A model generated the notes under the pieces. That model ran no database searches. It had not been told where the DNA came from and saw nothing but the letters and a program-made list of their open reading frames with translations. The position numbers were made by a program, and so were the translations under genes. Positions 24,711 to 63,983 of a stretch of DNA of 64,000 nt are shown here, one piece after another. Source of the stretch: Clostridiales bacterium. GTDB taxonomy: Bacteria; Bacillota; Clostridia; Oscillospirales; Oscillospiraceae. Location: positions 17,852 through 81,851 of the forward strand of contig DQIA01000104.1 of NCBI GenBank assembly GCA_003525905.1, written 5' to 3'. Numbering within the stretch: position 1 is the stretch's first letter; each line of letters starts with the position of its first letter.

Positions 24711-27419
24711 ATGGCAACATGGAACGGCGTCATCACCAACGCCGGCAACAGCCTGCTCAATGAGTGGGTGAATGAAAAGACCCTGAACTTCGACAGCGCA
24801 GCTGCGGGGCAGGGCACCGTCGCGGCGGCGGCAATGATGGCACAGACCGCCCTCGTCAATGAAAAGCAGACCGCGAGCCTGCTGGGCGGCGAGAGGGTAT
24901 CTTCCGGCATTCGTCTGAAGCTCCGCATCGCTGCGCCGAATACGGCCTATACGCTGAATCAGTTCCGCGTATCTGCCAGCGTGGACGGAGGAGCGTCCGC
25001 CATGATCGCCTTGTTCCAGCTGGAGCAGGGCGTTCCCATTCCCAGCAAGACAGAATCGCCGGATTTCGTCTACACCTTTTACGCTCTGATCTCCTGCTCG
25101 AATACCGGCACATGGACGGTGACGGTCGACACCAGCGCCTGCGTCACACAGGGCGATATGTCCGCCGCCATCGCTGAGGCGGTAAAGACCAAGCAGGACA
25201 AGATCATGGTCAAGGGTCTGCTGCTGGGCGACGGGAACGGGAATATCTCTGCGGCAGTCGCCGGAAAGGACTACGGTTATCCGCTTGCAACAGGCTCAGG
25301 AGCGCCGACAGACACGACCGAGGGTACCGCAGGGCAGCACTACTATGACAGCGCTACGGGCAAGGAATACGTCTGCAGCGGCAAGGACAGCAGCGGCAAG
25401 TATCAGTGGAAGCTGTCCGGCGCCAGCGACGCGGCCGATCTGACCTATAACGGCGAATCGCTCGACACCTTCCTTGATGGCGTTTCCGGCGACCTCGACA
25501 CGCTCTCCAAGGGGCTGGACGGAAGTAAGCCACTCACCGGCAAGACCGATCCGACCTCCAGCACGAAGGGCTCGGTCGGCCAGTCGTATCTGAACACAGA
25601 TACCATGCAGACCTTCTACTGCACGGCAGCCAACGATCAGACCGGCGTATATACATGGGAAAAGCCAAAGGGCGGCGGCGTGGCTCCACAGCTGGAGGTC
25701 TCTGTTGCCACCGGATCAGCTATCACCTGTACGAACGGCGAGACTACGCTGACTGGCACCAGCGTCGGCGGTAAATGCGTTTTTGATCTCCCTGGCTACG
25801 GTACATGGTCGCTGTATGCCACGTTGAACGGGCAGACCACCGCCACCGAGACTGTGGTCGTGGATCAGGTCAAGCAGTACGCGGTGACGCTGAGTTACTT
25901 CGCGGCTACGCTGACCGTAACGGCGGAATCCGGCGCAGTCGTGACCGCCGCGCTTGGCACGAAGCAGTATACCGGCACCTGCGGCAGCAACGGCAAGTGT
26001 GCGCTGACCGTCAACTATGCCGGCACCTATTCCGTGACGGCCACCAAGAGCGGGGTATCCTCGTCCACGGCGTCCGCATCGGTGTCGACCTCCGGCGGCA
26101 GTTACACCGCAACGGTGAAGTTCTGCACCCTCACCGTCACCATCGACAGCGGCTCTACGGTCAAGGCGGTCAACGGCTCCACCACACTCACGGCCACCAG
26201 CAGCGGAACGGCAAAGTTCTACCTGCCGAACACCGGCACGTGGAGCGTCACCGCCACCAAGAACGGCGAGACGGCCACCGGCAGCGTAGCTTGCAGCTCC
26301 TACACCGGCTATACGCTGGAGCTGTCCTATGTCAAGGTCTTCGGTGTCTGCTGGAATTACAATGCACAGTCGACGGCGCTGACCCGCCTGAAAAAGTCCA
26401 CCGATCCGAACGGACTGGTCAATGTCGACATCACCACGAATCCCGCGCCTGCGGTCGGTACCGGCGCCGGCAGCTCTCCCTTCGACAACTATCTCCCGTG
26501 GAGCGGCATGGACGAGTACAACATCATCAACAATGCCGTAAGCTACAAGAAGGGGCAGAGCGGCTTCTCTCGAAGCAGCTACGATACCGTTGTCTTCATC
26601 CCCGAGTATTACTTCCGTATTATCGACGATGCCGCCAACAAGAAACGGTACTTCTACATCGCGGATAAGGCCAAGAGCGGCTTCACCAAGCACCCCGGCT
26701 CCGGCAAGTATGTCGGCCGCTACAACACGATCTCCGGCCATTATTCCAAGACCGGCGCTGCGCCGCTGGTCAACCTGACCCGCGCATCGGCTCGTTCCGG
26801 TGCCAGAGGAAAGGGTAGCAAGTGGAGCGAGTATGACTTCGCGTCTTGGTGCGCGGTCTGGCTGCTCTATTTGGTGGAGTTTTCCGACTGGGACAGCCAG
26901 AGCAAAATCGGGCGCGGCTATGTCGACGGCAACAGCTCTGCCATTTCTTCCGGCGGCACGGACAGCATGACTTACCATACCGGACGCGCAGCTGGGACGA
27001 ACGGAAAGACCGCCGTCCAGTACCGGCACATCGAGAATCCCTACGGCAATGTCTTCGAGTTTATCGACGGGATCAACTTCTCCGACGGAACGGTATATGT
27101 CTGCCTGAACCCTGCGAGCTATGCAGATGACACCGCGGCCAACTATACGAACATCGGCTCCAAGATACAGAGCGATGGGTACATCACGGCCATCGGCGTA
27201 GCGGCTGCCATGCCCTGGGCGTTCTTCCCCACGGGGGTCGGAGGAAGCGAAACAACCTATATTCCGGACTACGCCTACTACAGCTCTGGCTGGCGTGTCC
27301 TCTTTGTGGGTGGCGGCTGGAGCAATGGCGGCGTTGCCGGCCTTTTCTACTTCTACGCGAGCTACGCCTCGTCGAGCACGAACTCGTACGTCGGCGCGCG
27401 ACTCCTTTTCCACCCCTAA
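24711..27419 (+). CDS. Tail fibre/receptor-binding protein with C-type-lectin-like variable domain (DGR target)
   Basis: Predicted 902 residues; ATG after CGGAGGTGTTTTACT. Residues 1-150 resemble phage fibre attachment domains. Two YYDSATGKEYVC / TDTMQTFYCTAAND stretches (about 210-235 and 290-316) may be small beta repeats. Three Ig-like repeats follow (about 328-395, 398-471, 473-541), each with a GTWSVTATKNG-like edge. The C-terminal third (about 570-902) looks like the formylglycine-enzyme-type C-type lectin fold used by retroelement targets (NPYGNVFEFIDGINF, SSGWRVLFVGGGWSNGG). Its last 46 residues are the variable repeat matched by the template repeat at 27641. It most likely binds a host surface receptor. 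Confidence 0.92.
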   Translation: MATWNGVITNAGNSLLNEWVNEKTLNFDSAAAGQGTVAAAAMMAQTALVNEKQTASLLGGERVSSGIRLKLRIAAPNTAYTLNQFRVSASVDGGASAMIALFQLEQGVPIPSKTESPDFVYTFYALISCSNTGTWTVTVDTSACVTQGDMSAAIAEAVKTKQDKIMVKGLLLGDGNGNISAAVAGKDYGYPLATGSGAPTDTTEGTAGQHYYDSATGKEYVCSGKDSSGKYQWKLSGASDAADLTYNGESLDTFLDGVSGDLDTLSKGLDGSKPLTGKTDPTSSTKGSVGQSYLNTDTMQTFYCTAANDQTGVYTWEKPKGGGVAPQLEVSVATGSAITCTNGETTLTGTSVGGKCVFDLPGYGTWSLYATLNGQTTATETVVVDQVKQYAVTLSYFAATLTVTAESGAVVTAALGTKQYTGTCGSNGKCALTVNYAGTYSVTATKSGVSSSTASASVSTSGGSYTATVKFCTLTVTIDSGSTVKAVNGSTTLTATSSGTAKFYLPNTGTWSVTATKNGETATGSVACSSYTGYTLELSYVKVFGVCWNYNAQSTALTRLKKSTDPNGLVNVDITTNPAPAVGTGAGSSPFDNYLPWSGMDEYNIINNAVSYKKGQSGFSRSSYDTVVFIPEYYFRIIDDAANKKRYFYIADKAKSGFTKHPGSGKYVGRYNTISGHYSKTGAAPLVNLTRASARSGARGKGSKWSEYDFASWCAVWLLYLVEFSDWDSQSKIGRGYVDGNSSAISSGGTDSMTYHTGRAAGTNGKTAVQYRHIENPYGNVFEFIDGINFSDGTVYVCLNPASYADDTAANYTNIGSKIQSDGYITAIGVAAAMPWAFFPTGVGGSETTYIPDYAYYSSGWRVLFVGGGWSNGGVAGLFYFYASYASSSTNSYVGARLLFHP
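27269..27407 (+). repeat. Variable repeat (VR) of the diversity-generating retroelement
   Basis: This 139-base segment aligns without gaps to the template repeat 372 bases downstream. There are 14 differences, and all fall where the template has A: eight A to G, five A to T and one A to C. Most change Asn codons (AAC/AAT) in the template into Tyr, Ser, Gly, Val or Ala codons in the fibre. This is the signature of adenine-specific mutagenic retrohoming. Confidence 0.97.
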
Positions 27420-27640: not shown

Positions 27641-27779
27641 CTACGCCAACTACAACTCTGGCTGGCGTGTCCTCTTTGTGGGTGGCAACTGGAACAATGG
27701 CGGCAATGCCGGCCTTTTCTACTTCAACGCGAACAACACCTCGTCGAACACGAACTCGAACGTCGGCGCGCGACTACTT
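27641..27779 (+). repeat. Template repeat (TR) of the diversity-generating retroelement
   Basis: The 139-base copy is rich in AAC codons when read in the fibre frame, giving many Asn positions that can mutate. It lies between fibre gene and reverse transcriptase in the same orientation, the common TR place. The two repeats share an invariant GC-rich 3' segment (CGTCGGCGCGCGACT, 27761-27775), expected to be the start site for homing, and diverge immediately after 27779. The short open frame through it is not considered a gene. Confidence 0.95.
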
Positions 27780-27904
27780 GTTTTTCTTTTGACTGGCGCA
27801 GGCTTTCCCTCACCGCTTGGTGAAAATATTGCCGCATAGGACGGGGTTTAGTAGGCTTCGGCTCGAATAACCTCGCAGGCAAACAAGGACGGAGGGAAAA
27901 TCCT

Positions 27905-42602: not shown

Positions 42603-42631
42603 TTGACAAATCCGGCATTTTCTGATAAAAT
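42603..42631 (+). promoter_or_regulatory. Promoter of rplJ-rplL
   Basis: TTGACA (42603-42608), 17 bases, TAAAAT (42626-42631). Its transcript begins with the L10 leader. Confidence 0.88.
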
Positions 42632-42637
42632 ATTTCC

Positions 42638-42751
42638 CGTTGCCAGAGACAGCAGGAGGCTTATGCCGTAACGATCCCCATCCTGCCGAGGTTACACGAA
42701 ATACAAGTGATTTCTGTGTCCTCATGTCTTTTGGCATGAGGACATTTTTTC
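42638..42751 (+). promoter_or_regulatory. L10 (rplJ) leader RNA with terminator
   Basis: The leader contains CAGCAGGAGGCTTATGCCG and TCCTGCCGAGG, the two sides of the L10(L12)4-binding structure of Firmicute L10 leaders, then a terminator stem GTCCTCATG (42718-42726) with CATGAGGAC (42735-42743) and ATTTTTT. Excess L10-L12 complex is known to bind such leaders and lower expression. Confidence 0.8.
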
Positions 42752-42765
42752 GGAGGTGACACACA

Positions 42766-43733: not shown

Positions 43734-43763
43734 ACGCCGCAGCACCGAAGTGCTGCGGCGTTT
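43734..43763 (+). terminator. Terminator of rplL; left copy of a duplicated hairpin
   Basis: CGCCGCAGCAC (43735-43745) and GTGCTGCGGCG (43750-43760) form an 11-bp stem with a CGAA loop and TTT. The same 30 bases recur at 43966-43995, on the other side of the repeat element. Confidence 0.9.
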
Positions 43764-43965
43764 GCGTTTCCCATAAGCCTCGCAGAGTTCGCCGCCCGCA
43801 GGCGGCGAATCAATTGAGATCATTTTCTCCGGCGGCGTGTACGTCGGAGAAAATACCACTCAGTCCGTCAGTGTGCGAATCGTTCGGCTCCGGCGGACGA
43901 TTCGTGCGCGCAGCGGACTGAAATTCCCTTATCAGAAAAGCCCTTTTGGCTTTTCTGATAGGCTC
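43764..43965 (+). repeat. Structured intergenic repeat, copy A, between duplicated rplL terminators
   Basis: The shared core runs from GCCTCGCAGAG (43777) to the last hairpin (43960). It holds four stems: TTCGCCGCC/GGCGGCGAA (43788-43809), ATTTTCTCCG/CGGAGAAAAT (43822-43854), a long one closed by CAGTCCG/CGGACTG (43861-43920) with inner CGAATCG/CGATTCG, and a TATCAGAAAAGCC/GGCTTTTCTGATA hairpin (43930-43960). Copies B (48742-48942, inverted) and C (55244-55426) share the first three stems almost base for base, with paired changes in the inner stem. No open frame is conserved. Confidence 0.9.
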
Positions 43966-43995
43966 ACGCCGCAGCACCGAAGTGCTGCGGCGTTT
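43966..43995. terminator. Right copy of the duplicated rplL terminator hairpin
   Basis: Identical over 30 bases to 43734-43763, then TGCG instead of GCG. It also lies where the leftward gene at 44021-44434 ends, so it could act for both directions. Confidence 0.85.
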
Positions 43996-44020
43996 TGCGC
44001 GTTTGTTTTGATTCCTGCGT

Positions 44021-44434
44021 TTATTCCTCGATCTCTGTGCTGATGCGATCGTCCTTTCCGCCCTCCGGGCGGCCGCTCAGGAAGCGCCGCGTGGCAAACA
44101 GCGCCACGACGCCCGCAATGCCAACGGCCAGGGAAAGGGGCTCATGATGGTTCAGCACCACATAGCGCGACAGCGCCATGATGAGCAGCTCCAGCGTGTT
44201 GCCGACGGTCGGCCGCAGCAGCATTTTTACAAATTCCACCGCCACGACAAGCGACGTGATGCTGCTCAGGAACGAATCGAGAAAGCCCTCCGCCAGAAAA
44301 ATGGACGGATCGCGCGCAAGCTCCCAGATCTCGATGCCCATCAGCGCAACGAGCACCAGCACAATGATGGCAGCCAGCACGATCTCGAGGATCTCCAGAA
44401 ATCTATGGATCCCGTGAATGATCTTTTCTCCCAA
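44021..44434 (-). CDS. Integral membrane protein, possibly PsiE-like (TTG start)
   Basis: Predicted 137 residues from TTG 44434, which has AAGGAG seven bases upstream. The open frame extends further, but a promoter with a perfect 17-base spacer (44468-44496) lies within that extension, so a start downstream of it is favoured. About four hydrophobic segments are visible, for example IVLAAIIVLVLVALMGIEI and LSLAVGIAGVVALFAT. VVAVEFVKMLLRPTVGNTLE resembles PsiE-type (phosphate-starvation-inducible) membrane proteins, but this is weak. Function unknown. Confidence 0.6.
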   Translation of the reverse strand: MGEKIIHGIHRFLEILEIVLAAIIVLVLVALMGIEIWELARDPSIFLAEGFLDSFLSSITSLVVAVEFVKMLLRPTVGNTLELLIMALSRYVVLNHHEPLSLAVGIAGVVALFATRRFLSGRPEGGKDDRISTEIEE

Positions 44435-44467
44435 AGTCTGCACTCCTTCTTCTGATTTTCCGTATTT

Positions 44468-44496
44468 AGTATACAGGAACCGGCCGGTCTCGTCAA
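44468..44496 (-). promoter_or_regulatory. Promoter of the leftward membrane protein gene
   Basis: Minus strand TTGACG (44496-44491), 17 bases, TATACT (44473-44468). Confidence 0.75.
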
Positions 44497-44521
44497 GCAG
44501 GAACATTTTTTCGAAACTCTC

Positions 44522-44550
44522 TTGCACGCCCAGAGCGTATGTGATATACT
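44522..44550 (+). promoter_or_regulatory. Promoter of the MATE gene
   Basis: TTGCAC (44522-44527), 17 bases, TATACT (44545-44550), divergent from the promoter at 44468-44496. Confidence 0.75.
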
Positions 44551-44565
44551 CATTGTGTCTACACC

Positions 44566-44597
44566 GCTGCAGCAGTCATCCGATCTGCTGCAGCCCA
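44566..44597 (+). promoter_or_regulatory. Hairpin in the MATE leader
   Basis: GCTGCAGCAG (44566-44575) and CTGCTGCAGC (44585-44594) form a perfect 10-bp stem followed by CCATTTT. It lies between promoter and start codon and could attenuate expression of the transporter. Confidence 0.5.
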
Positions 44598-44622
44598 TTT
44601 TATGATGACTGGAGAAGATACC

Positions 44623-45987
44623 ATGGAAACGAAAGCAGCCGGCAGCCTGACGCATGGCCGGCTCGGGAAGCAGATCCTTGCCTTCAGCCTGCCGCTGATG
44701 CTGTCGAATGTTCTGCAGGTCCTGTTCAATATGTCGGACATCGCCGTCGTAGGCCGTTTCTCCGGCCCGATCGCACTCGGCGCAGTCGGATCCACGGCGA
44801 CGCTCGTTACCCTGTTTACGGGTTTTCTCATTGGCCTTGGCAGCGGTATCAATGCCCTTGTTGCGCGCTTTCTCGGCGCAGGCAGCCGTGAGGAGACGCA
44901 GCGCACCGTCCATACGGCCCTTGCCCTGAGCCTCATCTTCGGCGCGGTGCTCCTGCTGCTCGGCGAGCTGACGGCTGTTCCTCTGCTGAAGCTGCTCGGC
45001 ACAAAGGAAGAGCTGATCGACGGCGCGACGATCTACCTGCGCATCTATTTCCTCGGCATGCCCGCCATGGCGCTCTATAACTTTGGCAATGCCGTTCTGA
45101 GCGCTGCGGGCGATACCCGCCGCCCCCTGCTTTATCTGCTCATCGCGGGCATTCTGAACGTCGCTCTGAATCTCTTCTTCGTCATCGTCTGCGGCATGAG
45201 CGCCGACGGCGTCGCACTGGCCAGTATCCTGACGCAGTACCTGTCGTCCGTCCTGATCCTCATTGCTCTTGTCCGGACGAAGGATGCCTACGGAGTCCGG
45301 CCGAAATGCATCCGCCTTCACCGCGACAAGCTCGCCCCCCTGCTGACACTGTGCTGCTCCGCGGGTCTGCAGAACGCCATCTTCGCCGTTGCCAACCTGT
45401 TCATTCAGGCAGGCGTCAACCGTTTCGACGCCCTGATGGTCGAAGGCAACTCCGCCGCCGCCAACGCAGACGGCCTTATTTACGACGTCATGGCTGCCTT
45501 CCACACAGCCTGTGCCAGCTTCATTGGGCAGAACTACGGCGCGGGCAACCGCGACCGCGTGCGCAGGACCTATTGGATCAGCCTCAGCTACTCGTTCGCG
45601 GCGGGCGCCGTGCTCGGCCTGAGCCTTGTGTTCTTTGGCCGCGGCTTCCTTGCCCTCTTTACGGACTCGGCTGAGGTCGCAGCCGCCGGTATGCACCGCC
45701 TGTGCATCATGGGCTTCTCCTATGCCATCTCGGCCTTTATGGACTGCACCATTGCAGCCTCCCGCGGCCTTGGCCGCTGTGTTGTGCCGACGATCATCGT
45801 CGTGCTTGGCTCATGCGTGTTCCGCGTGATCTGGGTCTACACGATCTTCGCCTCCGTCGGGACCATTGCCTCACTCTACCTGCTCTATCCGGTGTCTTGG
45901 ACGCTGACAGCCGGGGCCGAAATGGTCTACTTTTTCTACCTGTACCGCAAAGTATTCCGGAACCCGGCGAAACCGGCAACTGTCTGA
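44623..45987 (+). CDS. MATE-family multidrug/cation antiporter
   Basis: Predicted 454 residues from ATG 44623 (GGAGAAGATACC upstream); the ATG seven codons earlier has no ribosome site. About twelve membrane helices in two related halves. GKQILAFSLPLMLSNVLQVL and NMSDIAVVGRFSG are typical MATE N-terminal motifs, and GSGINALVARFLGAG is helix 3. It probably exports drugs or metabolites in exchange for Na+ or H+. The substrate cannot be predicted. A perfect 17-bp terminator follows. Confidence 0.93.
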   Translation: METKAAGSLTHGRLGKQILAFSLPLMLSNVLQVLFNMSDIAVVGRFSGPIALGAVGSTATLVTLFTGFLIGLGSGINALVARFLGAGSREETQRTVHTALALSLIFGAVLLLLGELTAVPLLKLLGTKEELIDGATIYLRIYFLGMPAMALYNFGNAVLSAAGDTRRPLLYLLIAGILNVALNLFFVIVCGMSADGVALASILTQYLSSVLILIALVRTKDAYGVRPKCIRLHRDKLAPLLTLCCSAGLQNAIFAVANLFIQAGVNRFDALMVEGNSAAANADGLIYDVMAAFHTACASFIGQNYGAGNRDRVRRTYWISLSYSFAAGAVLGLSLVFFGRGFLALFTDSAEVAAAGMHRLCIMGFSYAISAFMDCTIAASRGLGRCVVPTIIVVLGSCVFRVIWVYTIFASVGTIASLYLLYPVSWTLTAGAEMVYFFYLYRKVFRNPAKPATV

Positions 45988-45989
45988 AA

Positions 45990-46027
45990 AACAAATGCCT
46001 CGCTGCATTCGCAGCGAGGCATTTGTT
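45990..46027. terminator. Bidirectional terminator between MATE and LRR genes
   Basis: AACAAATGCCTCGCTGC (45990-46006) and its exact complement (46011-46027) form a 17-bp stem with an ATTC loop, with A and T runs on both sides. It ends both convergent genes. Confidence 0.93.
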
Positions 46028-46028
46028 C

Positions 46029-47744
46029 TTATCCGGCAATCGTGGAGGTCGGGTCCCAATAGACCACAACACCCATGTCGGACAGCTCCGTCACATGCGT
46101 GATCTTCGTACCGAACGCATTGACCTGCACGAGGTTCTGGCAGGCCTTCAGGCACTCGATGTCCGTGATGTCGGTGTTGTAATCCACATCCACATAGTTC
46201 AGCTCCGGCAGACCAGCAAGGCCGCTGATATCAGAGAGCTGGTTATAGGAGCCGTAGAACTGCTGCAGCCGGCACGTCTCCGTAAACGGCGGCAGCTCCT
46301 TGACGAGATTGTGGCTCATGTCAAGGTATGTCAGGTTCACGAGCGAGGCCGCACTGTCGACATTCTCGAGCTGGTTGTCCGAGAGGCGCAGCTCTGTAAG
46401 CTGCAGGCACGAGCCGAGGCCGGAGACGTCCGTCAGGGCGTTTTTCGAAAGATCCAGCTTCGTCAGGGCGCGCATGCCTGACAGCGGCGCGACGCTCGTG
46501 ATGCGGTTGCTGGCAAGTTTCAGTTCCGTCATCTCCGTACACTTGGCCAAGGCAGACACGCTCGTGATGTCATTCTCCGAAAGGTCGAGCGCCGTGAGCT
46601 TCGTCAGGCCGTCCAGCGCATCGATCGCCGTGATGGCATTGCGGGACAGGTCCGCCGTCTTCAGGCCGCTGTAGTTGGAGAGCGCGCCGATGTTGGAGAT
46701 GCTGTTATCGGACAGGTCGAGGTGCTCCATTGCCTTCGCGCCGGAGAGCGCCACGATGTTCGAAAGGCCGCAGCCGCTGAGGTTCAGATCGGACAGGTCG
46801 GTCAGCGTGCCGATATATTCGAGCGTCTGTGCCGAGACAAGGGAGCCGGAGAGGTCCAGCTTCTCGAGATACGGCATCACCATCAGGAAGGTATAGTCGT
46901 CAAACATACCGTTGTGGATCGTCAGGCTGTGCAGGCCCGTGAAGTAATGCAGGTCCGAGAAATCCGTGACCTCCTCCGGCATGACGAACTCCGTCACGGC
47001 CCACAGGTCGCTCGTGTAGATGACGGACGGCGACGGCTTGAGAATAAGGTCTCGCACATACTGCTCAAAGGCGCTGTCCGTAAACGTGACCTCCTCCACA
47101 ACACCGACAATCAGATAGTCGGCCTCCGTCAGCGGGCTGACAAGCCCGTCGTCGCTGACGGCAATGGCGGAAACATGCGTGGAGCCTGCCGGAAGGGCGA
47201 TCGGCTCAGCATAGGGCGCGTCCGCCGTCGAGGGGTACTGCTCCGTCACGGAGACATAGACGGTGCCGCTCGGCGCAGAGACCGAGACCGTGATATAATC
47301 CGAGAATTCGCCGCCGTCCGGAGTCAGTGCTGGGGCTGCCGGGCGGGCCGCCTCCAACGAGGCGCGAATGGCCGGGTCCGTGATGCTGTCGAGCATCTGC
47401 TGGGCATCAAGCAGCTTGTCCTGCGCCACATAGGTCGCGCTCAGGCGGCGGTAGAGCTGCTCCGAGGGGGCCGTGCGGATGGCTTCTACAAGCGTGCGCT
47501 CCGCGCGCGTGTAGCTGCCGTCAGCCAGGCAGGCATCCGCAAGCGCCAGCACATAGTCCACATTGTCCGGCGCAAGCGAGACGGCCGTCGTATAGCGGTC
47601 AACCGCGCGGGCATAGTTGCCGCTCTTCATGGCCTTCTCTCCGAGCGCCGCAAAATTATCCGCCGTCCAAAGGAAATGATACAATCCAAAGAGAAGTCCG
47701 GCCAGCAGCACGAGCACAACCAGCAGGATCAGGGCTTTCTTCAT
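46029..47744 (-). CDS. Membrane-anchored leucine-rich-repeat protein with TPR part
   Basis: Predicted 571 residues from ATG 47744 (GGAGACATTGCGT upstream). The N-terminal hydrophobic helix (KKALILLVVLVLLAGLLFGL) anchors it in the membrane. Residues about 35-120 resemble TPR repeats (AMKSGNYARAVDRYTTAVSL). About 130-210 is a beta-sandwich with GEFSDYITVSVSAPSGTVYV, like the chitobiase-type C-terminal domain. Residues about 275-570 are internalin-type repeats of 22 (LTALDLSENDITSVSALAKC). It likely displays an adhesive surface outside the cell. It has its own promoter. Confidence 0.85.
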   Translation of the reverse strand: MKKALILLVVLVLLAGLLFGLYHFLWTADNFAALGEKAMKSGNYARAVDRYTTAVSLAPDNVDYVLALADACLADGSYTRAERTLVEAIRTAPSEQLYRRLSATYVAQDKLLDAQQMLDSITDPAIRASLEAARPAAPALTPDGGEFSDYITVSVSAPSGTVYVSVTEQYPSTADAPYAEPIALPAGSTHVSAIAVSDDGLVSPLTEADYLIVGVVEEVTFTDSAFEQYVRDLILKPSPSVIYTSDLWAVTEFVMPEEVTDFSDLHYFTGLHSLTIHNGMFDDYTFLMVMPYLEKLDLSGSLVSAQTLEYIGTLTDLSDLNLSGCGLSNIVALSGAKAMEHLDLSDNSISNIGALSNYSGLKTADLSRNAITAIDALDGLTKLTALDLSENDITSVSALAKCTEMTELKLASNRITSVAPLSGMRALTKLDLSKNALTDVSGLGSCLQLTELRLSDNQLENVDSAASLVNLTYLDMSHNLVKELPPFTETCRLQQFYGSYNQLSDISGLAGLPELNYVDVDYNTDITDIECLKACQNLVQVNAFGTKITHVTELSDMGVVVYWDPTSTIAG

Positions 47745-47778
47745 ACGCAATGTCTCCAATCGGAAGTTATACGCGTTT

Positions 47779-47807
47779 ATTATACTTCCCCACGCGGCGG
47801 AAGTCAA
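47779..47807 (-). promoter_or_regulatory. Promoter of the LRR gene
   Basis: Minus strand TTGACT (47807-47802), 17 bases, TATAAT (47784-47779). Confidence 0.85.
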
Positions 47808-47873
47808 CGGAAATCGCGGTTTTCCGGGGAGGATGACGGAACGCGCCGCTATTTCCCCGGAAAAGCTTGCAAA

Positions 47874-48659
47874 TCACCCCAAGGCGACATCCAGCAGCAT
47901 CATGATCGCAAATCCGGCCACAATGCCCATCGTGGCTGTGTAGGGGCGCGCCTCGCGGTTGCGCTGACATTCCGGAATCAGCTCATGGACGGCCACAAGA
48001 ATCATCGCGCCCGCCGCAAAGGCAAGCGCATAGGGCAGGATCGCCTCAACGGAGCCGACGAGCAATGCGCCCAGCACGCCCGCGACCGGTTCAACCAGCC
48101 CCGAGGCCTGCCCGAGCAGGAAGCTGCGAAGCCGCCCCGCGCCCTCGCGCCGAAGCGGCACAGAGACCGCAGCGCCCTCCGGAAAATTCTGCAGGCCGAT
48201 GCCGAATGCAATGCTGACTGCACCCATGACCGCCTCCGGCGACGCGCCGCGCTGCAGCGCCCCAAAGGCCACGCCGACAGCCAGCCCCTCCGGGATATTG
48301 TGCAGTGTGATCGCGAGGATGAGCAGAACGACACGGTTCGCCCCGTTACCCCTCTCAGATCTGCAGCTGACACATGTGACCACGCGGTCAGATGCCCAGA
48401 GGAAGACGGCTCCCAGCAAAAAGCCCAGTGTGGCGACGAGCCACGGCGGCAGGCCGTCCTGCTCTGCCGCGCGGGCAATGGCGGGCTGCAGCAGGGACCA
48501 GAAGCTCGCAGCGATCATGACCCCTGCCGAAAAGCCGAGCATGCGGTTCATTGCTTCAGGCGACGGCCTGCGGAACAGGAACACCGTCGCCGCGCCGGCG
48601 GCCGTCACGGCCCACGTCCCAAGCGTCGCGATCAGTGCCCAAACGATCGGATTTTCCAT
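47874..48659 (-). CDS. ZIP-family metal transporter (GufA type)
   Basis: Predicted 261 residues with about eight helices. The metal-binding helices IV and V carry ITLHNIPEGLAVGVAFG and GIGLQNFPEGAAVSVPL, the HNxPEG and (Q)NxPEG motifs of ZIP transporters. It should import divalent cations such as zinc, iron or manganese. The loop between helices is short and lacks the His-rich stretch of eukaryotic members. No metal-responsive operator was seen upstream. Confidence 0.92.
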   Translation of the reverse strand: MENPIVWALIATLGTWAVTAAGAATVFLFRRPSPEAMNRMLGFSAGVMIAASFWSLLQPAIARAAEQDGLPPWLVATLGFLLGAVFLWASDRVVTCVSCRSERGNGANRVVLLILAITLHNIPEGLAVGVAFGALQRGASPEAVMGAVSIAFGIGLQNFPEGAAVSVPLRREGAGRLRSFLLGQASGLVEPVAGVLGALLVGSVEAILPYALAFAAGAMILVAVHELIPECQRNREARPYTATMGIVAGFAIMMLLDVALG

Positions 48660-48715
48660 ATTCCACCTCCCGTTTCATTGTATGCAGTGAGGGCGGAATT
48701 GCGTGCATGCGAAAA

Positions 48716-48741
48716 GAGCCGCTGAGGTTTCCCTCAGCGGC
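48716..48741 (-). terminator. Distal copy of the duplicated tuf terminator hairpin
   Basis: The 26 bases repeat the hairpin at 48943-48968. Reading leftward this copy is followed by TCTTTTCG and so carries the better T-run. Confidence 0.85.
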
Positions 48742-48942
48742 GCGCTGCCGAAAAGCCCATTGGACTTTCCGGCAAAGGGCTCGCAGTCCGCTGCGCGCAC
48801 GGATCATCCGCCGGGAGCAGGCGATCCGCACACTGGCGGACTGGGCGGTATTTTCTCCGACGTACAGGCCGCCGGAGAAAATGATCTCACTTCCTTCGCC
48901 GCCTGCGGGCGGCGAACTCTGCGAGGCATGATCGGACAAACT
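48742..48942 (-). repeat. Structured intergenic repeat, copy B (inverted), between duplicated tuf terminators
   Basis: Read on the minus strand it has the same order as copy A: GCCTCGCAGAG, TTCGCCGCC/GGCGGCGAA, ATTTTCTCCG/CGGAGAAAAT, CAGTCCG/CGGACTG with inner CGGATC/GATCCG, and a last hairpin TGCCG.AAAG/CTTT.CGGCA. Its 201 bases nearly equal the 202 of copy A. It lies downstream of tuf in the sense direction, as copy A does for rplL. Confidence 0.9.
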
Positions 48943-48970
48943 GAGCCGCTGAGGTTTCCCTCAGCGGCTC
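48943..48970 (-). terminator. Terminator of tuf, proximal copy
   Basis: GAGCCGCTGAGG/CCTCAGCGGCTC forms a 12-bp stem directly after tuf; only AGTTTG follows leftward. Twenty-six of its bases recur at 48716-48741. Confidence 0.88.
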
Positions 48971-48989
48971 AAGATGCGATATGCAGGAA

Positions 48990-50195
48990 TTAGTTCTCAG
49001 CAGTCTCGATGACGACGCCGGAACCGACGGTACGACCGCCTTCACGGATAGCGAAGCGGAGGCCCTTCTCGATAGCGATCGGGGTGATCAGCTCGACATC
49101 CATGTCGATGTTGTCGCCAGGCATGCACATCTCAACACCCTCGGGGAGGCTGATGATGCCGGTGACGTCGGTGGTACGGAAATAGAACTGCGGACGATAG
49201 TTGTTGAAGAACGGGGTATGACGGCCGCCTTCTTCCTTGGACAGGACATAGACCTGGCCACGGAACTTGGTGTGCGGATGGATGGAGCCCGGCTTGCAGA
49301 GGACCTGGCCACGCTCGATGCTCTTCTTGTCAACGCCGCGGAGCAGAGCGCCGATGTTGTCGCCGGCTTCTGCGTAGTCCAGCAGCTTGTGGAACATTTC
49401 GATATCGGTGACGACGGTGGACTTCTTCTCTTCCATCAGGCCAACGATCTCGACCGGCTCGTTCTTCTTGACGATACCACGCTCGACACGACCGGTGGCG
49501 ACGGTGCCGCGGCCGGAGATGGTGAAGACGTCCTCGACCGGCATCAGGAAGGGCATGTCAGCCTTGCGGTCCGGGGTCGGGATATAGTCGTCAACAGCGT
49601 CCATGAGCTCCTTGATGGAGGCATAGGCGGGGTCGTTGGGGTCGTTGCTCTCGCAAGTCAGAGCCTGCAGAGCGGAGCCCTTGATGATGGGGACATCGTC
49701 GCCCGGGAACTCGTAGTAAGACAGGGTCTCGCGGACTTCCATCTCGACGAGCTCGAGCAGCTCCTCGTCATCGACCTGATCGCACTTGTTCAGGTAAACA
49801 ACGATAGCGGGAACGCCGACCTGACGGGCCAGCAGCAGGTGCTCCTTCGTCTGGGCCATGGGGCCGTCGGAAGCAGCGATAACCAGGATAGCGCCGTCCA
49901 TCTGAGCAGCGCCGGTGATCATGTTCTTGATATAGTCGGCGTGGCCCGGGCAGTCGACGTGAGCATAGTGACGCTTCTCGGTCTCGTACTCAACGTGAGC
50001 GGTGTTGATTGTGATACCACGAGCCTTCTCTTCCGGAGCCTTATCGATGGAATCATAGGCCTCGAACTGAGCTCTGCCCTGGAGGGACAGCCACTTGGTG
50101 ATGGCAGCGGTCAGCGTGGTCTTGCCGTGGTCAACATGGCCGATGGTGCCGATGTTAACATGAGGCTTAGTTCTTTCAAATTTCTGCTTTGCCAT
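48990..50195 (-). CDS. tuf: Elongation factor Tu
   Basis: Predicted 401 residues. [15 protein letters not shown] is the P-loop, [15 protein letters not shown] is G3, and [12 protein letters not shown]4. Domains II and III follow ([13 protein letters not shown], and [19 protein letters not shown]). It delivers aminoacyl-tRNA to the ribosome. Length is normal. It lies last in the str operon and has an additional promoter in the fusA-tuf gap. Confidence 0.98.
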
Positions 50196-50252
50196 TGAAA
50201 AATCCTCCTGTTTGATTCGTAAATGGTAAAAACTTTATATTCGCTTACTTAC

Positions 50253-50281
50253 ACTATACACCAAAAGGTGTGCAATAGCAA
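50253..50281 (-). promoter_or_regulatory. Promoter between fusA and tuf
   Basis: Minus strand TTGCTA (50281-50276), 17 bases, TATAGT (50258-50253). An ACACC/GGTGT dyad lies between the boxes. It gives tuf extra expression independent of the operon. Confidence 0.75.
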
Positions 50282-50288
50282 GCATTTT

Positions 50289-52367
<2,079 letters not shown>

Positions 52368-52388
52368 TGGGTAACTCCTTTGATTTGT

Positions 52389-52859
52389 TTACCAGCGGAA
52401 ATGGGAGAATGCCTTGTTCGCTTCTGCCATCTTGTGGGTATCTTCGCGCTTCTTCACAGAGGCGCCGGTGTTGTTGCAGGCGTCCATGATCTCGCCGGCG
52501 AGGCGCTCTTTCATGGTCTTCTCGCTGCGCTTGCGGGAATAAGCAGTCAGCCAGCGCAGGCCGAGCGTCTGACGGCGCTCCGGGCGAACCTCCAGAGGAA
52601 CCTGATAGGTTGCGCCGCCCACGCGGCGGGACTTGATTTCCAGGGAAGGCATGATGTTTTCCATAGCCTGCTGGAAAGCGTCCAGACCGTTCTTGCCGGT
52701 CTTGGTCTCGACGATCTGGAATGCGTCATAGACGACGCGCTGGGCAACGCCCTTCTTGCCGTCGAGCATGACGCTGTTGACGAGCTTAGTCACCAGAGTG
52801 GAATTATAGACAGGATCCGGAAGGACCTCTCTCTTGGGAACATTACCTCTTCTGGGCAC
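52389..52859 (-). CDS. rpsG: Ribosomal protein uS7 (GTG start)
   Basis: Predicted 156 residues, exactly the usual length, when GTG 52859 is used; AAGGAGGGAAGCGAA precedes it. [20 protein letters not shown] is the conserved N-terminus. It nucleates assembly of the 30S head. The longer frame with an ATG six codons upstream would include the ribosome site. Confidence 0.96.
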
Positions 52860-52998
52860 TTCGCTTCCCTCCTTCATAAAAAAATGATTTCATAGGTACT
52901 TCAATAGCCCTTGCTACTGTTGGTGCCGTGCCAGAGATTCCCAAAAACGTATTTTCAAGAACATCATGGCAAGGCGGGATGCCTTGCGGCACGGGGGA

Positions 52999-53421
<423 letters not shown>

Positions 53422-53507
53422 GATGTTCTCCTTTCTTGCAAAAATCTGCTGCTTTGCAGCGTTTATCTTATCCCGGAATATCTGGAAATATTCCGCAGAT
53501 AACGAGA

Positions 53508-53747
53508 TCAGATGACCCCGGCAGCGGTAGCCGCCACGGAAATGCCGCAGGCCTGCCCGAGCTGACGGGCGGACGCAGCCGTCTCGACCGGGATACCGGC
53601 GAGCGTGCATGCCTCGCGGATGGGGTCAGTCAGCGCGGGATCCGCATCGTCCGCAAGGAAGACCTTGCGCACTCTGCCGTCGGCAAGTGCCCGGCGGAGC
53701 TGCTTGACTCCGACGATCCGCGCTGCATAGTTGAGTTCTTCGAGCAC
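53508..53747 (-). CDS. L7Ae/L30e-family RNA-binding protein (YbxF-like), GTG start
   Basis: Predicted 79 residues from GTG 53747, seven bases after GGAGGTG. The sequence [20 protein letters not shown] then [17 protein letters not shown] follows the L7Ae fold of Bacillus YbxF/RplGB, a kink-turn binding protein found just upstream of rpsL. Length fits (about 82). It starts the str operon here, with its own promoter. Confidence 0.88.
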
Positions 53748-53795
53748 CGTTTTACACCTCCGGATTGCTCGGTTTGCATGCTCACGCAATCATGA

Positions 53796-53824
53796 ATTAT
53801 AGCAGAATGAAGCGAAATAGTCAA
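53796..53824 (-). promoter_or_regulatory. Promoter of the str operon
   Basis: Minus strand TTGACT (53824-53819), 17 bases, TATAAT (53801-53796). A promoter here is needed because rpoBC does not lie upstream. Confidence 0.88.
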
Positions 53825-53872
53825 TCTTTTTTGCACGTTTTGCCGGAATTTTTTCTGAAGTCCGGAGAAAAT

Positions 53873-54067
53873 TCACTTTTCTTCCGTCTGTTCCGCGGGC
53901 TCTTCCACCATTTCGCCCAAAAACTCGCGCAATTCCGCGGCAATTTTGCACACCGGCGCATGGAGGCACGCCGGAAAATCGCAGTCCGCAGCACCGTCGT
54001 CCGTGTCGGCCATCACGACGCGCGACGCATCGAGCGCGCGGCAGTAGCCGGAAAAGCACTGTTCCAT
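53873..54067 (-). CDS. Small Cys-rich protein of unknown function
   Basis: Predicted 64 residues; ATG 54067 with AAAGGAG 10-12 bases upstream. CRALDASRVVMADTDDGAAD and CDFPACLHAPVCKIAAEL carry five cysteines in a pattern that could bind metal. It lies between the str operon and ytfI, transcribed leftward. The long reverse open frame that contains it is an artefact of GC-rich ytfI. Confidence 0.55.
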   Translation of the reverse strand: MEQCFSGYCRALDASRVVMADTDDGAADCDFPACLHAPVCKIAAELREFLGEMVEEPAEQTEEK

Positions 54068-54109
54068 CCCATTTTTCTCCTTTCCCGCGCAGCCGTTTTC
54101 GATTCCCGC

Positions 54110-54138
54110 TTGTAAAAACCGGGTAGCTGCATTATAAT
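54110..54138 (+). promoter_or_regulatory. Promoter of ytfI-gerW
   Basis: TTGTAA (54110-54115), 17 bases, TATAAT (54133-54138). It looks like a vegetative sigma-A promoter; no clear sporulation-sigma box was recognised. Confidence 0.7.
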
Positions 54139-54190
54139 AAAACCAGATCTGAGGATCTGATAAAAAGCATCGACAGACAGGAGGCGCGCC

Positions 54191-54784
54191 ATGCTGGCAC
54201 TCTGGATCCTGCTGGGGCTGTGTGCATTCGTTGCGCTGCTCCTGCTGCTTCCGCTGCATATCTATCTTGCCTTTACGCCGGAGGCGGGGTTTTCGTTTTA
54301 CGCCCGCTATGCGTTCCTGACCATCCGCCCGGGCAGTGGGCCGAACAAAAAGCTCATGGAGCAGATCTTCACGCTGCTCGGTCTGCGCGACGTCAGCAGC
54401 ACGGCCAACGCGCGCAGCGCCGTCTCGGCCAAGGGCGTAGCGGCCACGCTGCGTGAGCTCGGCGCTGTGCTGCGCACCCTGCTCGGGCGCGTGTTCTGGC
54501 TGCTGCACCGCGGCACGTTCCGCCGCTTTTCCCTGCATATCGCCGTCGGCGCGGAGGACCCGGCCGACGCCGCGCTGGACTACGGCATGGTGTGTGCGGC
54601 GCTGTATCCCGTGCTCGGGCTGCTGCAGTCCGCCATCCGTTTCCGCAGGCCGGACGTCGCCGTGACCTGCACGGAGGAGCCGCAGACGAACGTCGAATTT
54701 TCCGCAAAATTCTCGCTTCGCGCCATTCTCATCGTGCGGGCCTTCTTCCATCTGCTGGCGGAGAATGTCCGCAATACCTTATAA
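54191..54784 (+). CDS. DUF2953 (YtfI-like) membrane protein
   Basis: Predicted 197 residues; ATG after ACAGGAGGCGCGCC. An N-terminal hydrophobic helix (LALWILLGLCAFVALLLLLP) is followed by a beta-rich part (HIYLAFTPEAGFSFYARYAF) and the DUF2953 core (SLHIAVGAEDPADAALDYG, FSAKFSLRAILIV). DUF2953 genes lie next to gerW in endospore formers. Role in spores is inferred from this pairing. Confidence 0.85.
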   Translation: MLALWILLGLCAFVALLLLLPLHIYLAFTPEAGFSFYARYAFLTIRPGSGPNKKLMEQIFTLLGLRDVSSTANARSAVSAKGVAATLRELGAVLRTLLGRVFWLLHRGTFRRFSLHIAVGAEDPADAALDYGMVCAALYPVLGLLQSAIRFRRPDVAVTCTEEPQTNVEFSAKFSLRAILIVRAFFHLLAENVRNTL

Positions 54785-54799
54785 ATAAGGAGGAGCGTC

Positions 54800-55213
54800 A
54801 TGAAAGAGCTTCTGAAAGTATTGGAATTCACCGCCGACCGCACGCAGGCCCTTGCGGATTCGCAGTCCGTTGCGGGCGAGCCGCTGCACGTCGGCGATGT
54901 CACGCTCATTCCCGTCAGCAGCATCTCCTGCGGCTTTGCAGGCGGCGGGAGCGATCTGCCCGCGCGCACACGCAATGATGCCGCCGCGGCAGGCAGCGGC
55001 GCACGGCTGGCAAAAACGCCAGTTGCCTTTCTTGCCGTGTGTGGGCAGGAGGTGCAGGTACTGACGCTCGAGCAGCCCGCAAAGGAAGAAAAATCGCTGC
55101 TGGCGCAGCTTGCCCCGCTGGCCGAAAAGGTCCGGCAGGCCGCCGCGGAAAAGAAGGCGGCCAAGGCCGAAGAACCGCTTCCGGCAAAGACAGGAAAAAA
55201 GAAGTCCCGTTGA
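54800..55213 (+). CDS. GerW/YtfJ-family sporulation protein
   Basis: Predicted 137 residues; ATG after AAGGAGGAGCGTC. GEPLHVGDVTLIPVSSISCG, a glycine-rich loop FAGGGSDLP, and PVAFLAVCGQEVQVLTL match the GerW family. The C-terminus is Lys/Ala/Glu-rich. In Bacillus, GerW is needed for proper spore germination. Presence of ytfI-gerW implies a spore-forming lineage. Repeat copy C follows in the sense direction. Confidence 0.9.
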   Translation: MKELLKVLEFTADRTQALADSQSVAGEPLHVGDVTLIPVSSISCGFAGGGSDLPARTRNDAAAAGSGARLAKTPVAFLAVCGQEVQVLTLEQPAKEEKSLLAQLAPLAEKVRQAAAEKKAAKAEEPLPAKTGKKKSR

Positions 55214-55243
55214 CGCACCGGCCGCCTGCGCAGCGTATCAAAA

Positions 55244-55426
55244 GCCTCGCAGAGTTCGCTGCCCGCAGGCGGCGAAAAAAATAAGATCATTTTCTCCGGC
55301 GGCGTGTACGTCGGAGAAAATACCGCTCAGTCCGCCAGTGTGCAAATCGCCCGCCTTTGGCGGACGATTTGTGCGCGCAGCGGACTGCGATCTTTTTGTT
55401 GGGAAAGCCCAAAGGGCTTTCCCAAC
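55244..55426 (+). repeat. Structured intergenic repeat, copy C, downstream of gerW
   Basis: Same order of stems as copies A and B: TTCGC.GCC/GGCGGCGAA (one changed base), ATTTTCTCCG/CGGAGAAAAT, CAGTCCG/CGGACTG with inner CAAATCG/CGATTTG, and a last hairpin GTTGGGAAAGCCC/GGGCTTTCCCAAC (55398-55426) followed by AGTCTTTTAG. Unlike A and B it is not flanked by a visible duplication. It lies in sense after gerW and converges on the leftward gene. Confidence 0.9.
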
Positions 55427-55432
55427 AGTCTT

Positions 55433-62828: not shown

Positions 62829-63830
62829 ATGGCTTTGTTTGAAAGTTACGAAAGAAGAATCGACAAGATCAACGGCGTTCTTGCGCAGTATGGCATCGGC
62901 TCCGTCGAGGAGTGCCGCGAGCTGTGCAAGGCGAAGGGCTTCGATCCGTATGAGATCGTCAAGGGCATCCAGCCCATCTGCTTCGAGAACGCCTGCTGGG
63001 CTTACACCGTCGGCGCAGCCATCGCGCTGAAGTCCGGTGTCACCACCGCCGCCGAAGCCGCCAAGAAGATCGGCGAAGGCCTGCAGTCCTTCTGCATCGA
63101 CGGCTCCGTCGCCGAAGACCGCAAGGTCGGCCTTGGCCACGGCAACCTCGGCGCCATGCTGCTGAGCGAGGAGTCCAAGTGCTTCGCGTTCCTGGCCGGT
63201 CATGAGTCCTTTGCCGCCGCCGAAGGCGCCATCGGCATCGTCCGCAACGCCAACAAGGCACGCAAGACCCCGCTGCGCGTCATTCTGAACGGCCTCGGCA
63301 AGGATGCCGCTCAGATCATCTCCCGCATCAACGGCTTCACCTATGTGCAGACGAAGTTCGACTACTACACCGGCGAGCTGAAGATCGTCAACGAGATCCG
63401 CTACTCCGAGGGCGAGCGCGCCGATGTCCGCTGCTACGGTGCTGACGACGTCCGCGAGGGCGTTGCCATCATGCATCACGAGGGTGTCGATGTCTCCATC
63501 ACCGGCAATTCCACGAACCCGACCCGCTTCCAGCACCCGGTCGCAGGCACCTACAAGAAGGAGTGCATCGAGCAGGGCAAGAAGTACTTCTCCGTCGCTT
63601 CCGGCGGCGGCACGGGCCGTACGCTGCATCCGGACAACATGGCCGCCGGTCCCGCTTCCTACGGCATGACCGATACCATGGGCCGCATGCATTCCGATGC
63701 ACAGTTTGCAGGCTCCTCCTCCGTCCCGGCTCACGTCGAGATGATGGGCTTCCTGGGCATGGGCAACAACCCCATGGTCGGTGCTACCGTCGCCGTCGCG
63801 GTTGCTGTCGAAGAGGCGCTCAAGAAGTAA
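62829..63830 (+). CDS. GGGtGRT protein
   Basis: Predicted 333 residues; ATG after AAGAGGAGGAGCGCACC. The family is named for the motif seen here as SVASGGGTGRTLHPDNMAAG (about 258). Other conserved parts are VGLGHGNLGAMLLSEE, FAFLAGHESFAAAEGAIG and VSITGNSTNPTRFQHPVAG. Function is unknown; pairing with the Fe-S scaffold gene and a perfect promoter point to an abundant protein in iron-sulfur or redox metabolism. Its last 19 codons (63771-63830) recur in a duplicated segment downstream. Confidence 0.92.
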   Translation: MALFESYERRIDKINGVLAQYGIGSVEECRELCKAKGFDPYEIVKGIQPICFENACWAYTVGAAIALKSGVTTAAEAAKKIGEGLQSFCIDGSVAEDRKVGLGHGNLGAMLLSEESKCFAFLAGHESFAAAEGAIGIVRNANKARKTPLRVILNGLGKDAAQIISRINGFTYVQTKFDYYTGELKIVNEIRYSEGERADVRCYGADDVREGVAIMHHEGVDVSITGNSTNPTRFQHPVAGTYKKECIEQGKKYFSVASGGGTGRTLHPDNMAAGPASYGMTDTMGRMHSDAQFAGSSSVPAHVEMMGFLGMGNNPMVGATVAVAVAVEEALKK

Positions 63831-63831
63831 T
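63771..63831 (+). repeat. Direct repeat, left copy: 3' end of the GGGtGRT gene
   Basis: These 61 bases, from CCCATGGTCGG through the TAA stop and one further T, are identical to 63923-63983. Confidence 0.97.
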
Positions 63832-63922: not shown

Positions 63923-63983
63923 CCCATGGTCGGTGCTACCGTCGCCGTCGCGGTTGCTGTCGAAGAGGCGCTCAAGAAGTAAT
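63923..63983 (+). repeat. Direct repeat, right copy: non-functional second copy of the gene end
   Basis: Perfect copy of 63771-63831. It encodes MVGATVAVAVAVEEALKK plus stop without a start or ribosome site. The intact gene ends at the left copy. Confidence 0.97.

Follow-up and report, generated by a model that had tools for sequence, protein, structure and literature searches.

A small structured repeat, found in a family of gut bacteria and present in three copies (A, B and C) in a stretch of 64,000 nucleotides (nt) from a Clostridiales bacterium (contig DQIA01000104.1; the whole stretch is called the window below), is most probably a miniature, non-autonomous transposon that resembles the miniature inverted-repeat transposable elements (MITEs), is mobilised in trans by transposases of the IS1182 family and duplicates the terminators at which it inserts. 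Judging from sequence comparison, we put the probability of this reading at about 0.82. The element consists of short terminal inverted repeats (TIRs), a conserved core of three hairpins and a variable fourth hairpin. The initial annotation of the window had likewise proposed a non-autonomous mobile element that duplicates terminators, and this proposal is supported by the flanks of many copies, by the TIRs, by a footprint shared with IS1182 elements and by relatives with a single terminator, although duplication is not a general rule.

Duplicated terminators and terminal repeats

All three window copies were located where they had been annotated, A and C on the forward and B on the reverse strand. 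Copy A (43764..43965, +) is framed by two identical 30-nt copies of the rplL terminator hairpin (43734..43763 upstream and 43966..43995 downstream, both +), and copy B (48742..48942, -) by two copies of the 26-nt tuf terminator hairpin (tuf-proximal at 48943..48968 and distal at 48716..48741, both -). Both duplications, claimed before, proved to be exact, and since these repeats set the limits of the inserts, the inserts measure 202 nt (A) and 201 nt (B). We read A and B as putative insertions of the terminator-duplicating kind. The core of copy C (55241..55391, +) has no flanking duplicate (its own flanks score 10, as does the best cross comparison), and we take C for an insertion that lacks flanking hairpins, which may have replaced its hairpin or have decayed.

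The duplication was assessed across the family by scoring the upstream flank of each copy against the downstream flank of that copy and against those of the other copies in the same genome. A first survey covered 95 copies in seven sets, taken mostly with the best-scoring matches first: besides those of the window, 32 of the 41 matches of Vescimonas fastidiosa, 20 of 30 in genome G208, 15 of 16 in G163, 11 of 13 in G135, 9 of 32 in G149 and 5 of 7 in G365. Copies had their own hairpin on both sides (score of at least 18) in 47 of the 95 cases, versus 1 of 1790 cross pairs, and this sole pair consisted of two matches inside a single locus (L094). The duplicated copies were spread over all sets (window 2/3, V. 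fastidiosa 9/32, G149 4/9, G365 4/5, G163 3/15, G135 8/11 and G208 17/20), with target duplications of about 20-41 nt. Locus-specific hairpins flank about half of these copies and are missing around the other half, an outcome that the initial annotation had listed among those that would refute its reading. A second survey of 62 rows covered other genomes together with G031, G038 and G359 (10 loci were excluded as already counted, and one place in G031 occurs twice, as L013 and L056). Six rows scored at least 18; one of them, in family f13, carries the TIR CAGACTGTCGAAAA, and another (L029) does not show a hairpin with TIRs. The 13 of 3776 cross pairs that reached the same score are probably due to other repeats in the flanks.

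At the junctions we found the terminal repeats CAGnnTGTC...GACAnnCTG, the typical order being hairpin, CAGnnTGTC, interior, GACAnnCTG(A), hairpin. Among the 52 of 98 copies with a duplication at a score of at least 15, the 5' motif (at most 1 mismatch) stood at the upstream junction in 39, its 3' partner was present in 37 and both together in 30, against a control in which the 5' motif occurred in 81 of 1040 random windows of the same flanks. In a second count, both TIRs were present in 31 of these 52 copies and in 7 of the 46 non-duplicated ones (Fisher p = 8.7e-6), which leaves 60 of the 98 copies without both. In the window the left end is recognisable (at most 1 mismatch) in B (CAGTTTGTC, 48935..48943, -) and in C (CAGCGTATC, 55231..55239, +; one mismatch to CAGnnTGTC) and in A not at all. 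The two hairpins of a duplicated pair matched better in the same orientation in 49 of 52 cases and as reverse complements in 3, and the 3' edge of the upstream hairpin copy was poorer in T than that of the downstream copy (3.65 versus 4.85 of 12 letters, Wilcoxon p = 2.8e-5).

Some single loci deserve mention here. The flanking hairpins of the copies at L163 and L077 match better as reverse complements, with L188 nearly equal in both orientations; such flipping may be part of the insertion or a later event. At L325, downstream of a clp gene, a hairpin without any core lies between GAGCCTGTC and GGACAATCTG, possibly a minimal element with ends of the same type. Near a contig end in G135, 3' of tuf, a shortened element (L096, TIR CAGAGCGTC) keeps a hairpin like stem 4 and lacks stems 2 and 3.

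At one place, relatives that lack the element were in line with duplication upon insertion. In V. fastidiosa two similar hairpins enclose an element 3' of the clp gene. Of 19 relatives of the genus, 18 had no core box in the 450 nt that follow; the match in the remaining one, with up to 2 mismatches allowed, was taken as chance. In the nearest two relatives (92% and 87% identical in the flank) one terminator hairpin stands at this place, as the initial annotation had anticipated for empty sites, the 87% relative having another hairpin about 160 nt further along; more distant relatives have other hairpins, or none by the same test. The site of copy C in two relatives (L231 and L234) holds one hairpin and no element, again between a gerW-like gene and an ornithine cyclodeaminase gene, and a scan of 80 loci in named genomes carrying the gene next to C revealed no element at E <= 1e-3. 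A site in G149 does not allow a clean comparison, because the element and the shared neighbour are both missing in G218 and G312, and the element of G038 stands between two unlike hairpins.

A probable IS1182-family partner and a putative route of insertion

The likely source of the mobilising activity was found among IS1182-family insertion sequences (ISs). At E <= 1e-5 the IS1182 transposase (NF033551) had a match in 8 of the 14 genomes or records searched; of 394 genomes of the order, 59 had one at E <= 1e-20. Of 48 such loci fetched, we read the ends of 33, some of which are fragments. Eight combine nearly the same TIRs as the element (such as CAGCCTGTCGAAAAAG, CAGTCTGTCAAAAAAGG and CAGTTTGTCAAAAAACC) with a duplication of the whole hairpin, namely L210 and a further seven (L211, L340, L342, L343, L346, L349 and L350) whose TIRs follow the pattern CAG[ACT][CT]TGTC[GA]AAAA. 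The nine letters at the left end of copy B are identical to those that open the IS1182 element of L350. At L211 the two hairpins are reverse complements of each other, and in L344 the TIRs stand between unlike hairpins. Several other IS1182 loci have different terminal repeats and no hairpin duplication, so the hairpin-duplicating ISs represent a single group among the IS1182 elements. The left end of the small element agrees with the nearest IS end in 14-16 of 17 letters in G208, G149, G365 and V. fastidiosa, in 11 in G135 and in window copies B and C, and in 8 in copy A, in a comparison of hand-picked ends that serves as illustration rather than as a test.

The target is a terminator-like palindrome. 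The insert adjoins one hairpin copy at its 3' foot and the other at its 5' foot, which leaves the whole hairpin duplicated. A plausible route is pathway b of a model proposed for IS1272 (see below). The transposase would read the terminator hairpin as an extruded, cruciform structure and both transposon ends would be joined, on each strand, to the 5' foot of the hairpin, after which gap repair would create the second hairpin. We take copies that lack TIRs or duplication for core units that have decayed or spread by other means.

Some group IIC introns target terminators, and insertion by a reverse transcriptase, like that of a group IIC intron or by target priming as in retrotransposons, would fit both the terminators and the long duplications. 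We consider it hardly credible here, since the inverted terminal repeats and the footprint are those of an IS family and Rfam shows no intron family on the element in the copies searched.

Several observations weigh against a mobile element driven by IS1182 transposases. Its mobility is something we infer from sequence; 48 of the 95 copies of the first survey and 56 of the 62 rows of the second lack the hairpin duplication, and the TIRs in the window are degenerate, with 8-11 of 17 letters matching IS ends. The core was found in none of 38 IS1182 loci (E <= 0.1), and the interior can therefore not be derived from a known IS by simple deletion. The transposase (E <= 1e-20) occurs in 10 of 48 element-bearing genomes and in 49 of 346 others, a weak association in a count that treats two draws of 394 genomes as identical, and at E <= 1e-5 it had no match in G135, G163, G365, G255, G080 or the V. 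fastidiosa replicon. Finally, 11 of the 23 V. fastidiosa copies with annotated neighbours are antisense or in 5' regions. We regard the copies without a duplication as accounted for and not as a refutation, since duplication and TIRs tend to occur together.

The structured core, its distribution and its surroundings

The core matches an RNA covariance model built from 19 copies (43774-43924 in A, 153.5 bits; 48780-48930 in B). In copy A, all on the + strand, the conserved box CTCGCAGAG is followed by stem 1 (43788..43809), then by stem 2 (43822..43854) and by the two-part stem 3 (43861..43920), whose inner part varies with compensation; all three follow from folding together with covarying pairs. 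The fourth hairpin, predicted by folding 3' of stem 3 in A, B and C alike (43930..43960 in A; 55397..55428, +, in C), differs in sequence from copy to copy. Folding z-scores against shuffled sequences were -12.4 (A), -11.2 (B) and -9.4 (C). Compensatory exchanges within the inner stem, noticed before in the window copies, are indeed present there and more numerous in relatives: among 98 copies (96 distinct), 30 of the 41 pairs changed on both sides and 97.7% of the cells were paired, more than in 500 of 500 shuffles and in all slid controls, in an alignment fitted to the model and with figures inflated by kinship among the copies. On the element strand the stems hold 316 G-U against 12 A-C cells in this alignment and 72 against 3 in a MAFFT alignment built without the model; the structure was predicted with RNA rules, which somewhat favour G-U. 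The core thus pairs like RNA on one strand, and its structure is maintained there, as RNA or as single-stranded DNA.

The covarying pairs (0/500 shuffles reach their figures) and the strand-specific pairing, together with invariant letters outside the stems and with the many copies lacking both TIRs, is what one would expect if a functional RNA came first, that is, a selected cis-acting or stable 3'-end RNA module to which the mobile ends are secondary. We hold this to be unlikely. Single-stranded DNA could also use a strand-specific structure, and of the annotated V. fastidiosa copies the 11 mentioned above are antisense to, or before, the neighbouring gene. Nor does the polarity of the duplicated terminators point to a preference for the sense strand (the 5' edge is A-rich in 32 of 52 copies and the 3' edge T-rich in 21), and Rfam at the gathering cut-off placed no family on the element in the window, L031, L155 or L204. 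A search of copy A extended to E = 10 gave sub-threshold matches far below the cut-off, which we took as chance. Rather improbable, too, is the variant in which the core is a functional RNA, either a regulatory 3'-end module or an RNA used in transposition, that is spread by the IS1182-type ends; if it were true, each insertion would shift the T-tract downstream and the transcript would run through the RNA before the duplicated terminator stops it. For the core, the 3'-end RNA domain that the initial annotation had named as an alternative keeps some probability.

A hairpin-rich element with a strand-specific structure also recalls repetitive extragenic palindromes (REPs) and the single-strand transposition of IS200/IS605-type elements. 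These are not known to make target duplications, and in view of the duplications of about 20-41 nt we regard this route as very unlikely.

A possible, though less probable, alternative to a single MITE-like transposon is that two elements are combined in one, a core with its own way of spreading having been captured later by IS1182-type ends in some lineages. No duplication (score 18) was found for most G031 copies (family f7) and for 15 of 16 G038 copies, and in one V. fastidiosa subfamily the duplication is missing and so, by eye, is the left TIR. In the nearest relatives, the places of two non-duplicated V. fastidiosa copies beside prmC hold what appear by eye to be truncated or inverted remnants. 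Copies without TIRs may nevertheless be just old and decayed, neither a precise junction nor a short duplication was found for them, and by eye some G038 copies have kept the right TIR.

The search for further copies suggested in the initial annotation extended the family considerably. Of 394 genomes of the order, 48 matched the covariance model when scoring was limited to 7 candidates per genome; they belong to families f14, f7, f13, f20 and f3, and none to f1. In a class-wide draw the core was detected in 4 of 391 genomes, two of which belong to the order while the other two are weak. Copy numbers can be high: with up to 150 candidates scored, matches at E <= 1e-6 number 32 in G149 and 30 in G208. 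The model has 41 matches at E <= 1e-3 on the V. fastidiosa replicon NZ_AP023416.1. With blastn, copies were found in 2 of 41 relatives and, in a plasmid collection, in one record, this same replicon, at 32 places. The window tuf gene is nearest to genomes of family f14 (87% to G135 in the searched draw), which includes a genus with one genome matching a V. fastidiosa stretch at 100%. A search with the gerW region in 200 genomes gave a single weak match of 68 bases and no near kin of the window. Three matches labelled as phage turned out to be unannotated faecal scaffolds and were rejected as evidence for phages. The copies of G031 (odd-numbered loci L001-L029) have lower model scores, resemble the others in blastn mainly over their first 90 bases and, by eye, merge into other GC-rich repeats.

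With regard to gene context, the window copies had been described as lying in sense downstream of a gene, which is correct for A (rplL), B (tuf) and C (a gerW-like gene, convergent with the ornithine cyclodeaminase gene on the other side) and does not extend to V. fastidiosa. Of the 41 copies there, 23 could be placed by annotation; all 23 are intergenic and 12 are sense-downstream of the preceding gene, two of these at more than 500 bases. Gene orientation derived from open reading frames (ORFs) was dropped in favour of annotation, as long antisense ORFs led to wrong calls even for copies A and B. Mechanically called ORFs overlap the element, yet it is too short for a transposase gene.

Elsewhere in the window, an L10 leader RNA match lies upstream of rplL (42625-42757). 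A 139-nt direct repeat (90%) at 27269-27407 and 27641-27779 just precedes an RT-18 RNA match (27811-27890), an arrangement reminiscent of a diversity-generating retroelement, with its template and variable repeats, in a prophage-like part. An exact 61-nt direct repeat is found near the window end (63771-63831 and 63923-63983).

Comparison with known systems

The best reading of the sequences is a MITE with IS1182-type ends; a literature search, with subscription journals and preprints outside its scope, found no paper describing the repeat. The element is short (close to 200 nt for A and B) and non-coding, most of its duplicated copies carry TIRs, and its target site is duplicated in about half of the copies of the first survey, in A and B and not in C. 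A related autonomous element is available in the IS1182 elements with matching TIRs and footprint, with no shared interior. Like IS1182 elements it targets hairpins or palindromes, but no transposase gene fits in it, and we file it as mobilised by, rather than as a member of, the IS1182 family because only its ends match.

Bacterial MITEs, such as those covered by PMC10969869, share with it the small size, TIRs, target duplication, lack of genes and high copy number. They differ in the interior, which is here an order-wide covarying core of three hairpins, and in the target duplication, which is here a complete terminator. The pneumococcal BOX, RUP and SPRITE repeats (PMC10383233, PMC10969869) are likewise small, structured and intergenic, one of them being terminator-like; they occur in other hosts and, in the available portions of these sources, no terminator duplication is described for them, in a comparison by description.

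Closest in targeting are IS1272 and TnSha1 of staphylococci, members of the IS1182 family with a transposase of their own, which target hairpins, several of them terminators, with no sequence preference (PMC4923244). As published (PMC4923244, PMC5678879), their insertions either remove a section of the hairpin or take its place and leave no duplication, unlike our element, which duplicates the whole hairpin and carries no gene. Pathway b of the IS1272 model does predict a duplicated stem-loop (PMC5678879), as a possibility put forward in that paper; the many natural whole-terminator duplications found here would be examples of it. The eight IS1182 loci of Oscillospirales resemble the element in TIRs and in whole-hairpin duplication and differ from it in having a transposase gene and lacking the core. 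Duplication of a whole terminator is thereby linked both to full IS1182 elements and to a small non-coding passenger, whose order-wide structured core has no Rfam match in the copies searched and reaches dozens of copies per genome in some cases (G149, G208 and V. fastidiosa). Together they offer a ready test case for structure-guided DNA transposition, in which terminators would be recognised by shape and not by sequence.

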